Part shown: positions 5,238-12,790 of the stretch, piece after piece
Layout: each line of letters starts with the position of its first letter
Numbering within the stretch: the first letter of the stretch is position 1
Source: Methanofollis tationis
GTDB taxonomy: Archaea > Halobacteriota > Methanomicrobia > Methanomicrobiales > Methanofollaceae
Direction of reading: 5' to 3'
NCBI RefSeq assembly: GCF_013377755.1
Contig: NZ_JABXWR010000001.1
Location: 879,104-943,103, forward strand
Length of the DNA: 64,000 bases
Notes under the pieces: generated by a model
Database searches by the model: none
What the model was told of the DNA's origin: nothing
Seen by the model: only the letters and a program-made list of their open reading frames with translations
Made by a program: the position numbers and the translations under genes

Positions 5238-6944
5238 ATGGCAAAGATTGAGAGAACCCAGAAGCTCTTCCTGAAAGCGCTCAAGGAGAAGTTCCAGGGA
5301 CAGGACGTCCAGTCCGAGAAGGCAGAGTTCTACAAGTTCGGCGGCCTCAAGCAGTCCCCGAGAAAACAGGAATTCCTCAAGGAGTCCCGCGCCGTCGAGA
5401 TGCAGCGTGGCATCTCCATGTATGACCCCGAGCGCTGCCACCTTGGCGGCATCCCGATGGGCCAGCGCCAGCTGATGACCTACGAGGTCTCCGGCACCGG
5501 CGTCTTCGTGGAGGGCGACGACCTGCACTTCGTCAACAACGCTGCGATGCAGCAGTTCTGGGACGACATCCGCCGGACGATCATCGTCGGCATGGACCTC
5601 GCTCACGCCACCCTGCAGAAGCGTCTGGGCAAGGAAGTCACCCCCGAGACGATCAACGAGTACCTGCACATCCTCAACCACGCCATGCCCGGCGCAGCCG
5701 TGGTTCAGGAGCACATGGTCGAGACCCACCCGGCGCTCACCGATGACTGCTATGTGAAGGTCTTCACCGGCGACGACGAACTCGCCGACGACATCGAGCC
5801 CCAGTTCCTCCTCAACATCGAGAAGCTCTTCCCGGCGAAGTCCGCGGAGGCCCTCAAGGCGGCTGTCGGCAAGTCGATGTTCCAGGCCGTTCACATCCCG
5901 ACGATTGTCTCCCGCACCTGCGACGGCGGTACCACCTCCCGGTGGTCTGCGATGCAGCTCGGCATGTCCTACATCGCCGCGTACCGCATGTGCGCCGGTG
6001 AAGCGGCCGTCGCCGACCTCTCCTACGCTGCAAAGCACGCCGGCGTCATTCAGATGGCCGACATCCTGCCGGCCCGCCGTGCACGCGGTCCGAACGAGCC
6101 CGGTGGCATCAAGTTCGGCCACTTCGCCGACATGATCCAGGCCGACCGCAAGTACCCCAACGACCCCGCAAGGGCGTCCCTTGAGGTCGTCGGTGCAGGC
6201 ACGATGCTCTTCGACCAGATCTGGCTCGGATCGTACATGTCCGGCGGTGTCGGCTTCACCCAGTATGCGACCGCCGCGTACACCGACAACATCCTCGACG
6301 AGTTCACCTACTACGGCATGGACTACATCAAGGACAAGTACAAAGTCGACTGGAAGCACCCGTCCGCAGCGGACAAGGTCAAGCCGACCCAGGAGATCGT
6401 CAACGACATCGCCGGCGAGGTCACCCTCAACGCGATGGAGCAGTACGAGCAGTTCCCGACCATGATGGAGGACCACTTCGGCGGGTCCCAGCGTGCCGGT
6501 GTCATCGCCGCCGCTTCCGGCCTGTCCACCGCCATCGCCACCGGCAACTCGAACGCCGGTCTCAACGGCTGGTACCTCTCGATGCTCATGCACAAGGAAG
6601 GCTGGAGCCGCCTCGGCTTCTTCGGCTACGACCTGCAGGACCAGTGCGGTTCGACCAACTCGCTCTCCGTCCGCCCGGACGAGGGTGCGATCGGCGAGTT
6701 CCGCGGTCCGAACTACCCGAACTACGCGATGAACGTCGGTCACCAGGGCGAGTACGCCGCTATCGTCGGCAGTGCGCACTACACGCGCGCCGACGCATGG
6801 TCGATGAACCCGCTGATCAAGATCACCTTCGCGGACCCGGCGCTGAAGTTCGACTTCGCCGAACCCAGGCGCGAGTTCGCAAAGGGTGCGATCAGAGAGT
6901 ACATGCCGGCCGGCGAGCGCTCCCTGATCATCCCGGCAAAGTAA
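5238..6944 (+). CDS. mcrA: Methyl-coenzyme M reductase subunit alpha
   Basis: 568 residues, full length. McrA carries most F430-contacting and post-translationally modified residues. Visible are the [11 protein letters not shown] loop holding the axial-ligand Gln, the [10 protein letters not shown] segment with the His that is N-methylated in known enzymes, [13 protein letters not shown], and [12 protein letters not shown], which holds the Gly converted to thioglycine and the nearby Cys sometimes methylated. The sequence is canonical methanogenic type I MCR rather than ANME or alkyl-CoM-reductase-like. Last gene of the mcr operon; a nine-T run follows at 6959-6967. Confidence 0.99.
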
Positions 6945-7178: not shown

Positions 7179-8078
7179 ATGGAAAGCATATTATTAGGCG
7201 TAGGAGTAACAGCATTGGCAGGTGCTCTTGCTACCGTTGCCGGCGCTGCCGAGGACACTGAGTCCAACATCGGATCACAGGGTGACCCGAACTCTCAGGT
7301 CCAGTTGGCTCCGCAGATGGGCTATATTCACCGGATTTACAACAAGGCTGTATCCGGTGAACCGCCCGCATATGGTCTGTGGGTCACTATCGGCGCAGGC
7401 GTGGCCTGGGCATTTATGGCAACCGGCATGAACCCGGTGCTTGCTATTGTTATTGCGTCCTCACTTGCAATCTTCGTGCAGGGCGTGTATGCGGCGACTG
7501 CCTACCTTGGCAGGACGTCGAGTCTGGCAAAGTTTGAACAACCGGTATACATCGACCTACTCAAGTCGGTGACCTCCGTCACGATGGCGCATGCCTTTGT
7601 TGCGGTATTCACGACCGTGTCGATGTGTTACCTCATGAACGCGGCTCTCGGTCACCCGTTCCCGCTGCCTCTTCTCGGTATCGTCTGGGGCATCGCTCTC
7701 GGTGCCGCAGGCTCTGCAACCGGCAACCCCTTCTATGGAAAGGAACGGCAGTACCAGTCCCAGATGTTCGGCGCAGGCGTTCCGATCTCCGCATCCGGCA
7801 ACATCGTCCGGTATGCCGAGGCCGGTCAGCGCAGCTCCCTTGACAACGGCTGGTTCACCGCAAAGCTCGGCGGCCCGGCATCGGGTGTCTGCTTCGGGCT
7901 GATCGTATTCCTCGAGCTCTGGAGGACCGTCCTCTTCGAGGAGGCCGTCGGCGGTTGGGGCGCCATTATCGTCGGTGTCATCATCATCCTGATCTTCATG
8001 ATCATCGACCGCTACATCGAGACCTGGGCCCGCAAGAACTACGGTCCGTACACGAATGCTGAGGAGGCATCGGCATGA
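7179..8078 (+). CDS. mtrE: Tetrahydromethanopterin S-methyltransferase subunit E
   Basis: 299-residue integral membrane protein, one of the three large membrane subunits (C, D, E) of the Na+-translocating N5-methyl-H4MPT:coenzyme M methyltransferase. The sequence has the MtrE hallmark QVQLAPQMGYIHRIYNKAVSGEPPAYG and about six hydrophobic segments. ATG at 7179 follows GGGAGATG. It overlaps mtrD by the four bases ATGA (8075-8078). First gene of the mtr operon. Confidence 0.97.
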   Translation: MESILLGVGVTALAGALATVAGAAEDTESNIGSQGDPNSQVQLAPQMGYIHRIYNKAVSGEPPAYGLWVTIGAGVAWAFMATGMNPVLAIVIASSLAIFVQGVYAATAYLGRTSSLAKFEQPVYIDLLKSVTSVTMAHAFVAVFTTVSMCYLMNAALGHPFPLPLLGIVWGIALGAAGSATGNPFYGKERQYQSQMFGAGVPISASGNIVRYAEAGQRSSLDNGWFTAKLGGPASGVCFGLIVFLELWRTVLFEEAVGGWGAIIVGVIIILIFMIIDRYIETWARKNYGPYTNAEEASA

Positions 8079-8914
8079 GCGCACTTGGTGCAGCAAAAGG
8101 CGGCGGCGAAGGCATCAACCCGACCGCGTCCATCATCGGCATTGTCATCATCATCGCAGCCCTCGCGATCACCGCAGTCATGGCGGCGCCTGCCCTTGTG
8201 GCAGTCATCGGCGTGATCATCGGCGGCGCTCTCGTCGGCTTCGGTGTCCACTTCGTCCCGGTCGGCGGCGCACCTGCCGCTATGGGCCAGTCCCCCGGTA
8301 TCGCTACCGGTGTGGCCATGCTCGCGGCCGGTGCAGGCCTTGCCGGCCTCTTCGGCGGCGCATGGGCTGCAGCAAACCCCGCATTCGGGATTGCTGTCGT
8401 CATCGCCGCAGGCGCTATCGGCGGCGGCCTCATGATGGCGATCACCTGTCTGATGGTCAACATCGTCTACATCTTTGGCATGGGTATTCCGGCCGCATCA
8501 GGAAAGGTCGCGAAGGACCCGATCACCGGCGACTCCCAGGCGGAGTACAAGTCACAGGGCACTGAAGGTCACGGCCTGCCGTTCATCTCTTATGTCGGCG
8601 GTGTGATCGGCGGTCTGCTCGGCGGCGCCGGCGGTACGCTCATCTACTATGAGCTCCTGCAGGTCTACTCGGCCATGCTTCCCGCAATGTTCAACGCAAG
8701 CGCAGAAGAGGTCCTGCCGATCGCAGTCTCACTCGCAGGCATCTTCGCTGTCGGCATGTTCCTGGTGAACGCCGTGCTTGCCGCGTACAACATTACGGGC
8801 ACGATTGAAGGGCCCCACGACCCGAAGTTCAAGCGCTTCCCGCGTGCAATCATCGGGTGTGCCGTCGCTTCGGCAGTCTGCGGCCTGTTTGCAGTTCTGA
8901 TTGTGGTGGTGTAA
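8075..8914 (+). CDS. mtrD: Tetrahydromethanopterin S-methyltransferase subunit D
   Basis: 279 residues, rich in Gly/Ala/Ile with about six to seven membrane segments; the N-terminal region is longer and more Ala/Gly-rich than in some relatives. It contains FGMGIPAASGKVAKDP and GTEGHGLPFISYVGGVIGG, conserved in MtrD. MtrD is thought to take part in sodium translocation. The start overlaps mtrE and the stop is one base before the mtrC ATG, so expression is coupled. Confidence 0.96.
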   Translation: MSALGAAKGGGEGINPTASIIGIVIIIAALAITAVMAAPALVAVIGVIIGGALVGFGVHFVPVGGAPAAMGQSPGIATGVAMLAAGAGLAGLFGGAWAAANPAFGIAVVIAAGAIGGGLMMAITCLMVNIVYIFGMGIPAASGKVAKDPITGDSQAEYKSQGTEGHGLPFISYVGGVIGGLLGGAGGTLIYYELLQVYSAMLPAMFNASAEEVLPIAVSLAGIFAVGMFLVNAVLAAYNITGTIEGPHDPKFKRFPRAIIGCAVASAVCGLFAVLIVVV

Positions 8915-8915
8915 A

Positions 8916-9776
8916 ATGACAGTACAAATTACCGCTTCAACCGGCGGCATACCCCACGACAAGCTGATGGCAGTCGGCCTTGTTGGCTCGGTCATCTGCC
9001 TGTACCTGACCTATCTCAACAGCGCCACCGGAACCGAGGTCTTCTCGTTCTTCGGCGGACTTGCTGCTGTTTTCGCTCTGGTATGGGGCACGAGCACCAT
9101 CAAGCACCTCTGCAGCTACGGTATCGGTACCGGCGTGCCGTCCGCAGGCATGATCGCCTTCGGTTCCGGTGTGATTGCCATGCTGCTTGCAACCCGCTTT
9201 GACGCCATGTACCTCACTCCGATCATGGCCGTCGTCTTCGGCGCCATCGTCGGCGGTGTCTGCGGTTTCCTGGCAAACGGTGTCATGCGCATGAACATCC
9301 CGGTCATGGTCCGCTCGCTCACCGAGATGGCCATCATCGGTGCGATCGTCATCCTCGGCCTTACGGCCGTCATGGCAGGCGGCTTCGGTTTCGACGCCCT
9401 CTCCGTGAAGACCGTCTCGATCCTGGGCATCCTTTCGACCACGTCCTTCGGGGCTTCGCTGCTCGGCGGCTGCCTGATCGCGGTCTCTTTCATGCTTGGC
9501 GGTATTGCTCTCCAGCACCCGTTCAACGCCTGCCTCGGCCCCGGCGAGAAGCAGGACCGGACGCTCACGCTCGCTGCAGAGTGCGGCTTCCTCTCGATGA
9601 TCGTTGTCGCTGTCATCTCATTCGCCTTCGTCAGCGCATTCGCAGCGATCATCTCGCTTGTTGTCGCCATTGCAGGCTGGTACTACACCTTTGTCAAGTA
9701 CATCGAATACAGCAAGCGCGATGCGTACGCATGGCTCGACGCTAAGCCGATTCTCGAACCCAAGGGTGAGGACTGA
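8916..9776 (+). CDS. mtrC: Tetrahydromethanopterin S-methyltransferase subunit C
   Basis: 286 residues, multi-spanning membrane subunit. The start at 8916 (MTVQITASTGGIPHDK) is chosen over 8901 because GGTGGTG at about 8904-8910 is then correctly placed and the upstream ATG would lie inside mtrD. About seven membrane segments are visible. The C-terminal KYIEYSKRDAYAWLDAKPILEPKGED tail is hydrophilic. The stop shares one base with the mtrB ATG. Confidence 0.96.
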   Translation: MTVQITASTGGIPHDKLMAVGLVGSVICLYLTYLNSATGTEVFSFFGGLAAVFALVWGTSTIKHLCSYGIGTGVPSAGMIAFGSGVIAMLLATRFDAMYLTPIMAVVFGAIVGGVCGFLANGVMRMNIPVMVRSLTEMAIIGAIVILGLTAVMAGGFGFDALSVKTVSILGILSTTSFGASLLGGCLIAVSFMLGGIALQHPFNACLGPGEKQDRTLTLAAECGFLSMIVVAVISFAFVSAFAAIISLVVAIAGWYYTFVKYIEYSKRDAYAWLDAKPILEPKGED

Positions 9777-10060
9777 TGGGATACGTACTCGTACTGCCCG
9801 AATTCGGGCTTGTAGTAGACCCGATGGTCGGCGTCGTCACCACGGCAGGTGTTTCGTACCAGCCGGTGATCGACAAGGTCACCGAACTTGAGAAGTACAC
9901 CGACGACCTCGTCGGCATGCTCTCCGGTGAAGGTGCCTTCGCTGCCTCATTCCCTGGCAGAGAGAAGTCACTGGTCATCGCCGGTGGCGTCACCGCCCTC
10001 TGGTATGGTATGGCTGTAGGACTGCTCATTGCGGGGATCATCGTCTTCGCACTGATCTGA
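9776..10060 (+). CDS. mtrB: Tetrahydromethanopterin S-methyltransferase subunit B
   Basis: 94 residues, usual size for MtrB. The N-terminal domain ([19 protein letters not shown]) is soluble; a single C-terminal membrane helix spans about residues 70-93. In known complexes MtrB is one of the small single-span subunits around the MtrCDE core. TGATG overlap with mtrC. Confidence 0.95.
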
Positions 10061-10800: not shown

Positions 10801-11004
10801 ATGGCAGAAGAAGAGAAGAAGACATCTGGCGCAATCAGGATGGCTGCGATCGACACGATCATGTCAGACATCAAGTTTAAGTCCCAGATCATTGCCAGGA
10901 CGAACAAACTCGATTCAGGCATTATGGACTCAGGTATTCCAGGCTTTGCGGCAGGCATGCTCATCGTCATGGTCCTTGTCGTGGTGCCGGTATTCCTGAT
11001 CTGA
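10801..11004 (+). CDS. mtrF: Tetrahydromethanopterin S-methyltransferase subunit F
   Basis: 67-residue single-span subunit. The N-terminal soluble part, with [14 protein letters not shown] matching MtrF, is followed by a membrane helix at about residues 45-66. The start at 10801 is chosen over an in-frame ATG at 10762 inside mtrA. It lies between the two mtrA-type genes, so recombination between the two repeats would delete it. Confidence 0.93.
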
Positions 11005-11014
11005 GGTGAGAAGC

Positions 11015-11746
11015 ATGGCAGACAAGACATCACCGGCAAGTGGATGGCCCATTGCAAAGGGCGACTTCCACTCAGGCGACGCCAACTCGTGTGTCGCCGT
11101 CGTCACCATGGGGTCCCACCTCGATGAGCAGGCGATCTGCGATGCAGGCGCCGCACTCTGCGGCTCGTGCAAGACAGAGAACCTCGGCCTCGAGAAGGTC
11201 ATCGCAAACATCATCTCGAACCCGAACATCAGGTTCGTCCTGACCTGCGGTACCGAGGTCAAGGGGCACCTTTCCGGACAGACGTTCCAGGCGCTCCACG
11301 CCAACGGCGTCGAGGGCGGCAAGGTCGTCGGCTCAAAGGGTGCGATCCCCTTCATCGAGAACCTCGATGATGCAGCGATCAAGCGCTTCCAGGCCCAGAC
11401 CGAACTCGTCGACATCATGGAGACCGAGGACCTCGGTGCAATCAAGGCGAAGATCGCCGAACTCACCGGGAAAGACCCCGGAGCGTTCGGAGAAGGCCCC
11501 ATGGTCGTCGAGGTCAAGGAAGCCGAGGGCGGCGCTGCCGGAACGGCAGTTGCCGGCGCAAACCCGCAGTTCCTTGAGATCGAGAAGAGGCTCGACGAGG
11601 TTGAGACAAGGATTGAGTTCGTGAACGCCGAGGTGACCCAGCGCATCGGTCGGAAGATCGGCAGGGACATCGGCATACTCTACGGATTGGTAGCAGGACT
11701 GTTCGTCTTTATGATGCTCATATTCCTGCTCCCGAAATTGATGTAA
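11015..11746 (+). CDS. mtrAG: MtrA-MtrG fusion: second corrinoid domain joined to subunit G
   Basis: 243 residues. Residues 1 to about 168 repeat MtrA almost exactly, including the corrinoid His85. After a Gly/Ala linker, residues 184-243 are an MtrG unit: coiled-coil-like [20 protein letters not shown], then [16 protein letters not shown], then one membrane helix (about 220-240). No separate mtrG exists between mtrF and mtrH, where it normally lies, so this gene occupies its place. Start at 11015 after GAGGTGAGAAGC. DNA of the MtrA part is identical to the first copy over a 406-bp run and differs near both ends, implying recent duplication or ongoing gene conversion. If made, the complex would carry two corrinoid domains on different anchors. 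Confidence 0.9.
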
Positions 11747-11761
11747 GGAGGCAAGATCAGT

Positions 11762-12790
11762 ATGTTCAAGTTTGAGAAAGAACAGGCCGTATTCGACTTC
11801 AACGGCATTAAACTCGGTGGCCAGCCTGGAGAGTACCCCCGGGTTCTCGGCGCATCCATCTTCTACAACAAGCACGAGACCGTGCTCGACGACCACACGG
11901 GCAAGATCGACAAGGCAAAGGCAGAAGCGCTCTGGAACCGCTGTCAGGAACTCTACGACCAGACAGGCAACCCGTACTTCATCCAGATCATTTCGGAGTA
12001 CGGCGAGGCCTTTGAGAGCTACTTCGACTGGTTCTGTTCGATCGACGACAAGACGCCCTTCCTGATGGACTCCTCGGCGGCACCGGCACTCGCCCACGCC
12101 TGCGAGTACGTCACCGAGGTCGGCATCGCCGACCGTGCGATCTACAACTCGATCAACGGCTCCATCACGCCGGAGAGCATCGAGGCCCTGAAAAAGTCCG
12201 ACGTCAACTCGGCGATCGTCCTCGCCTTCAACCCCGGCGACCCCTCGGTCGCGGGCCGTGAAAAGGTGCTCACCGAGGGCGGTGTCGCAGGCCAGGCAAA
12301 GTCCATGATCGGCATTGCCGAAGAGTGCGGCATCACCCGTCCGATCCTGGACACTGCGGCGACCCCGCTCGGCCTCGGCTCAGGCGGCTCGTTCCGTGAG
12401 ATCCTCGCCTGCAAGGCGATCCACGGCCTGCCGACCGGCGGCGCATACCACAACATGACCGTCTCCTGGACCTGGCTGAAGCGCTGGAGGAAGAACGTCC
12501 TCGCCTCCCAGTACGAGGGCAAGGATGTCCTCCTCGAACAGATGGCTCACCACCACTTCGGCGGCATGGAGGGTATCAGGCAGACAGCATGGGCGGCCCC
12601 TGATATCGGCTGCAACATCATGGCCATGACCCTGGGCGCCGACCTGATCATGTTCGGTCCGATCGAGAACTGCGAGGGCATCGCCACGGCGGCCGCGTTC
12701 TCCGACATCGTCCTCGCCGAGGCGCGCCGCGAACTCGGTGGAGACCTTGGAGAAGGTGTCACCAAGCACCCCCTCCTGTCACTCGTCTAA
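11762..12790 (+). CDS. mtrH: Tetrahydromethanopterin S-methyltransferase subunit H
   Basis: 342 residues, soluble TIM-barrel methyltransferase subunit that moves the methyl group from methyl-H4MPT to the MtrA corrinoid. Segments such as AIVLAFNPGDPSVAGREKVL and LDTAATPLGLGSGGSFREI are typical of MtrH and the pterin-binding superfamily. GGAGG (about 11746-11750) precedes the ATG. It is somewhat longer than the roughly 310-320 residues common in the family. Last gene of the operon, followed by a T-run. Confidence 0.96.
   Translation: MFKFEKEQAVFDFNGIKLGGQPGEYPRVLGASIFYNKHETVLDDHTGKIDKAKAEALWNRCQELYDQTGNPYFIQIISEYGEAFESYFDWFCSIDDKTPFLMDSSAAPALAHACEYVTEVGIADRAIYNSINGSITPESIEALKKSDVNSAIVLAFNPGDPSVAGREKVLTEGGVAGQAKSMIGIAEECGITRPILDTAATPLGLGSGGSFREILACKAIHGLPTGGAYHNMTVSWTWLKRWRKNVLASQYEGKDVLLEQMAHHHFGGMEGIRQTAWAAPDIGCNIMAMTLGADLIMFGPIENCEGIATAAAFSDIVLAEARRELGGDLGEGVTKHPLLSLV

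Follow-up and report, generated by a model that had tools for sequence, protein, structure and literature searches.

A corrinoid domain fused to MtrG in the mtr operon of Methanofollis tationis: a probable second methyl carrier of the Mtr complex

Between mtrF and mtrH, the mtr operon of Methanofollis tationis encodes a single protein that combines a complete MtrA corrinoid domain, a short linker and a one-helix MtrG. The gene lies in a stretch of 64,000 nucleotides, hereafter called the window. It is a further, Methanofollis-type member of the mtrA-2b genes, an arrangement published since 2015 (Wang et al., G3; PMC4632066). We consider it likely that mtrA-2b is an MtrG with a second, competent MtrA domain, which would give each protomer of the Mtr complex two corrinoid carriers running the same cycle. 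The features of the locus are listed in Table 1.

Pfam domains, an alignment and a structural model were used to characterise the fusion protein. The open reading frame starts at ATG 11015, and an in-frame GTG upstream at 11006 is an alternative start. The Pfam MtrA profile matched residues 4-173 (profile positions 1-171 of 173; 275 bits, E = 2.7e-82) and the MtrG profile matched residues 184-237 (profile positions 10-63 of 64; 82.9 bits, E = 1.5e-23), leaving the fused MtrG without about the first nine positions of its profile. The MtrA corrinoid subunit binds a 5-hydroxybenzimidazolyl cobamide. Within the motif GTEVKGHL, His85 of the fusion aligned with the His84 ligand of Methanothermobacter marburgensis MtrA (8q3v_A), and the MtrG module, which matched 9qtq_S and 8q3v_G, carried the conserved MtrG helix segment. 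An AlphaFold model of moderate confidence (mean pLDDT 68.5) showed a globular domain ending near residue 153, disorder over about residues 159-183 and a single long helix at residues 184-242. The modelled domain matched the solved MtrA structures 9qts, 5l8x, 5laa and 9qtr with E-values of 1e-16 to 1e-18, and beyond MtrA structures the fold search returned nothing at a comparable E-value. An earlier note, made from the letters of this DNA alone, had described an MtrA domain with His85 followed by a one-helix MtrG, and the Pfam matches, the alignment and the model all agree with that description.

Table 1. Features of the mtr locus, in window coordinates.
Feature	Position	Strand	Evidence
mtrE	7179..8078	+	Pfam
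mtrD	8075..8914	+	Pfam
mtrC	8916..9776	+	Pfam
mtrB	9776..10060	+	Pfam
mtrA-1, canonical MtrA with its own C-terminal helix	10071..10793	+	Pfam; full-length 9qtq_A match
mtrF, separate gene between the two mtrA copies	10801..11004	+	Pfam MtrF
mtrA-2/mtrG fusion gene (mtrA-2b type of Wang et al. 2015), 243 aa	11015..11746	+	ORF; Pfam MtrA and MtrG; sole genomic MtrG
MtrA corrinoid-binding domain of the fusion, residues 1-173	11015..11533	+	Pfam 4-173; mtrA-1 identity; fold match
Cobalt-ligating His85 codon of the fusion, CAC	11267..11269	+	Sequence; alignment to 8q3v_A
Linker joining the domains of the fusion	11534..11563	+	Pfam boundaries; predicted model
MtrG module of the fusion, residues 184-237, long stalk/transmembrane helix	11564..11725	+	Pfam; 9qtq_S and 8q3v_G matches
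mtrH	11762..12790	+	Pfam

The gene order in the window is mtrE-D-C-B-A-F-(A-G)-H. A profile search of the whole genome returned exactly two MtrA matches and one MtrG match, all in the mtr operon. Hence, the normal mtrA that the earlier note had placed upstream is present, and its statement that a free mtrG is missing holds for the whole genome, where the single MtrG match falls within the fusion. An assembly artefact was rejected: the locus is contiguous in a genome of two contigs, and the same arrangement recurs in eight intact operons of genus mates (L101-L108) and across the order. The closest named relatives of the host are Methanofollis metagenome-assembled genomes (MAGs), with 88% protein identity, and the host belongs to the Methanomicrobiales. 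Directly upstream of the operon and on the same strand, an open reading frame at 5238-6944 resembles mcrA, the gene of the methyl-CoM reductase alpha subunit.

The implied novelty of the fusion did not stand. Wang et al. described mtrA-2b, in which mtrA is fused to mtrG and which is placed between mtrF and mtrH, as the norm in Methanomicrobiales, together with a parallel mtrA-mtrF fusion (mtrA-2a) in Methanococcales and Methanocella arvoryzae, and recurrent gene conversion that is restricted to the MtrA domain and keeps both MtrA domains alike (PMC4632066). The same mtrA case was recovered in a survey of concerted evolution in 2018 (PMC6053082). The gene in the window shares architecture, operon position, near-identity with mtrA-1 and order with the published mtrA-2b genes, without any essential difference, although Methanofollis is absent from that paper's abbreviation list of eight Methanomicrobiales species. 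With mtrA-2a it has in common a second MtrA corrinoid domain that sits on a stalk subunit with a single helix and is homogenised with mtrA-1. In mtrA-2a, however, the anchor is MtrF rather than MtrG, the origin is independent and MtrG remains free. All subunits A-H of the canonical complexes of M. marburgensis (8Q3V; PMC10998594) and Methanosarcina mazei (9QTQ; PMC12774963) have a homologue here, and the domain and the helix of the fusion match their MtrA and MtrG. In contrast to the window, each protomer of the canonical complexes has a single MtrA, and its MtrG is free.

Homogenisation was pronounced in the window. The fused domain shared 98.7% DNA identity (98.3% protein identity) with its own mtrA-1, against 96.9% with its best fused orthologue, and the two copies were sisters in the tree (99/94). 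Our evolutionary dataset comprised 68 distinct complete operons, and the tree was built from 54 genomes. Across the 68 operons, paralogues had a mean DNA identity of 95.6% (median 97.4); between species, orthologues had 75.4% for copy 1 and 75.3% for copy 2. The tree intermixed the two copies, the copy label changing 51 times, and an AU test rejected a topology that unites all fused copies in one clade (p = 1.8e-5). The homogenised tract begins at the ATG, a few bases upstream of which identity is already at background level, and fades near codon 170. Homogenisation is thus confined to the corrinoid domain, as Wang et al. also found. Independent recent duplications are an unlikely alternative to gene conversion, as the conserved architecture speaks against them, a point also made by Wang et al. 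His85 was kept in both copies in all 68 operons. Both mtrA paralogues are reportedly essential (Sarmiento 2013, as cited by Wang et al.).

The fusion extends throughout the order. A survey of related genera, which the earlier note had proposed, was in effect already covered by PMC4632066; our survey reproduces and extends it, finding the fusion order-wide. An MtrG match, one per genome, was found by profile search in 179 of the 232 Methanomicrobiales genomes, and among the matches listed the MtrG frames in complete loci were about 240-320 aa long. In the phylum outside the order, the MtrG frames were 73-143 aa long among the matches listed, i.e. unfused. Two or three MtrA matches were present in all 26 single-contig genomes of the order that were examined. 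We found no revertants with a free mtrG in the order: the fetched short and intermediate frames are explained by 24 cases at contig ends and three damaged operons. All 20 short frames that were fetched first ran into a contig end (L081-L100), as did four of the seven intermediate frames fetched later (L143-L146), while the other three (G163, G166, G227) lie mid-contig and have frameshifts or in-frame losses within the repeats. These three damaged operons are most simply explained by repeat-related assembly errors. The fused MtrG started at position 5-11 of the MtrG profile and free MtrG at position 1-5, which implies that the fusion took the place of MtrG's N-terminal segment. In Methanocella sp. 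PtaU1.Bin125 (L073:5001-6760), an MtrA is followed by an MtrA-MtrF fusion and then by a free MtrG; after M. arvoryzae, for which this arrangement was published, it is the second Methanocella genome to show it, in agreement with PMC4632066.

Many metagenome assemblies suffer from the near-identical mtrA repeat. Besides the contigs that end within the repeat, there are the three damaged loci (L141, L142, L147), and in some MAGs (G163, G166, G227) the mtrA copies were collapsed, frameshifted or without a middle stretch; in G166, residues 34-105 were missing from both copies. Copy counts of mtrA and mtrG that come from MAGs need care. Several genomes of the order (G192, G193, G195, G196, G207, G159, G191 and others) had a third or fourth MtrA-family match, possibly soluble MtrA homologues or fragments of broken assemblies.

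One alternative is that the fused domain only provides redundancy or dosage, as a spare MtrA that is kept by passive conversion, with the fusion retained for the sake of an essential MtrG. The near-identical tandem domains, about 0.4 kb apart, are ideal for recombination, and the fusion cannot be lost since MtrG has no other genomic copy. We nevertheless judge this explanation improbable, in view of the operons in which conversion lapsed. Eight operons, from Methanomicrobium, Methanocorpusculum (an inferred name for L112 and L113, genus code g9), a Methanospirillaceae MAG and the genus codes g21 and g22, contained diverged copies with 79-88% DNA identity. Between two species of Methanomicrobium, the fused copy had dN/dS values of 0.0088/0.154 and mtrA-1 had 0.024/0.32; for L112 versus L113, the corresponding values were 0.0025/0.088 and 0.015/0.33. 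His85 was retained in all eight operons. We also mapped 15 contact positions from the MtrA-MtrH and MtrA-MtrCDE contacts proposed in PMC10998594. Across the eight operons, the copies differed at these positions in none of 120 cells, compared with 166 of 1160 cells elsewhere in the domain. The fused domain stays under purifying selection in the lineages where conversion lapsed, which argues against a mere spare, though conversion could be passive. Degeneration of the fused corrinoid domain was rejected, with His85 kept, dN well below dS and contacts unchanged. The conserved contacts are consistent with both copies running the same cycle, but are not proof of it, because these positions are generally conserved and the diverged operons are few and partly related. 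By analogy, the independent MtrF fusions in Methanococcales and Methanocella (PMC4632066; L073) also suggest that a second carrier is beneficial and not just redundant.

The junction between the domains is conserved as well. From the end of the corrinoid domain to the first stalk motif, the median distance was 17 residues to NPQF in the fused MtrG versus 23 residues to ALIHAR in MtrA. No conserved in-frame start with a ribosome-binding site was present near the junction, and an internal start giving free MtrG was therefore rejected. The linker is rich in Gly, Ala and Glu and predicted to be disordered; it could be cleavable, and anchorless MtrA homologues are known in other methanogens (PMC4632066). 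If the MtrA part were cleaved off after translation, a free MtrG and a soluble MtrA-like carrier would result. We regard such processing as very unlikely, given that the linker length is tightly kept (15-18 aa), the NPQF motif at the junction is almost invariant and the start of MtrG has been replaced by the fusion. To our knowledge, there is no cognate protease for this linker.

Two carriers per protomer are suggested by the intact domains of the fusion, the retention of His85, the purifying selection and the conserved contact residues. Two corrinoid domains on different anchors would follow logically from the gene itself and fit the topology of the stalk, which makes this the best reading. 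The helices of MtrA, MtrB, MtrF and MtrG form the stalk with their N-termini in the cytoplasm (PMC10998594), so that the corrinoid domain fused to MtrG would be on the correct side of the membrane. The corrinoid domain of MtrA shuttles on a flexible linker between MtrH and MtrCDE (PMC10998594; PMC12774963). Similarly, the second MtrA domain would be tethered to the cytoplasmic N-terminus of MtrG, an obligatory central-stalk helix of the Na+-pumping Mtr, and we infer that each protomer would have a pair of mobile corrinoid domains, anchored to the MtrA helix and the MtrG helix, respectively. The two carriers would each take the methyl group from methyl-H4MPT at MtrH and deliver it to CoM at MtrCDE, with export of Na+. 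They might alternate, one reloading as the other discharges, or the second MtrH in every dimer might be served. Gene conversion limited to the corrinoid domain would keep the carriers matched to their shared partners, while the anchors stay different.

The position of MtrG in the stalk allows more than one role for the extra domain. The N-terminal strand of MtrG pairs with MtrB (PMC10998594), and MtrB in turn binds the MtrH dimer through its N-terminus (PMC12774963), so the extra domain would emerge beside MtrH. This neighbourhood would also suit a regulatory or assembly function, such as holding MtrH or sensing the state of the cofactor, and small proteins like MtrI bind the MtrA domain in M. 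mazei. We give little credence to a non-catalytic function of this kind, since the contact and ligand residues match those of the catalytic copy, also in operons whose domains have otherwise diverged. With the preferred reading of two catalytic carriers, a more specific proposal can be made, which we put forward tentatively and hold to be rather unlikely: the Mtr of Methanomicrobiales would have six carriers for six MtrH barrels, with the MtrG-borne carrier serving the membrane-distal MtrH, as a two-armed machine whose stoichiometry and rate would differ. In other methanogens, the membrane-distal MtrH is probably beyond the reach of the single MtrA. We know of no published proposal of an MtrG-borne carrier serving it. 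The Mtr complex of M. mazei contains six MtrH, arranged as three dimers, alongside three MtrA, and its membrane-distal MtrH was thought unlikely to be served (PMC12774963). With a tether shorter than MtrA's, the MtrG-borne domain has an unproven reach, and the single MtrA per protomer in both solved complexes counts against two carriers. A literature search for protein-level evidence, in the form of proteomics separating the two MtrAs, a structure with the fusion or a corrinoid-to-protein ratio, found none; in the main text of a proteomics paper on M. maripaludis, MtrA (MMP1564) and MtrB (MMP1563) are the only Mtr subunits named.

Mtr is the sodium pump of methanogenesis, and the Methanomicrobiales are a major order of methanogens. 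If each protomer has two arms, the one-arm mechanism known from Methanothermobacter and Methanosarcina would not be general. Moreover, the mismatch of three MtrA to six MtrH in the M. mazei structure would become interpretable, as a second carrier would make the numbers match.
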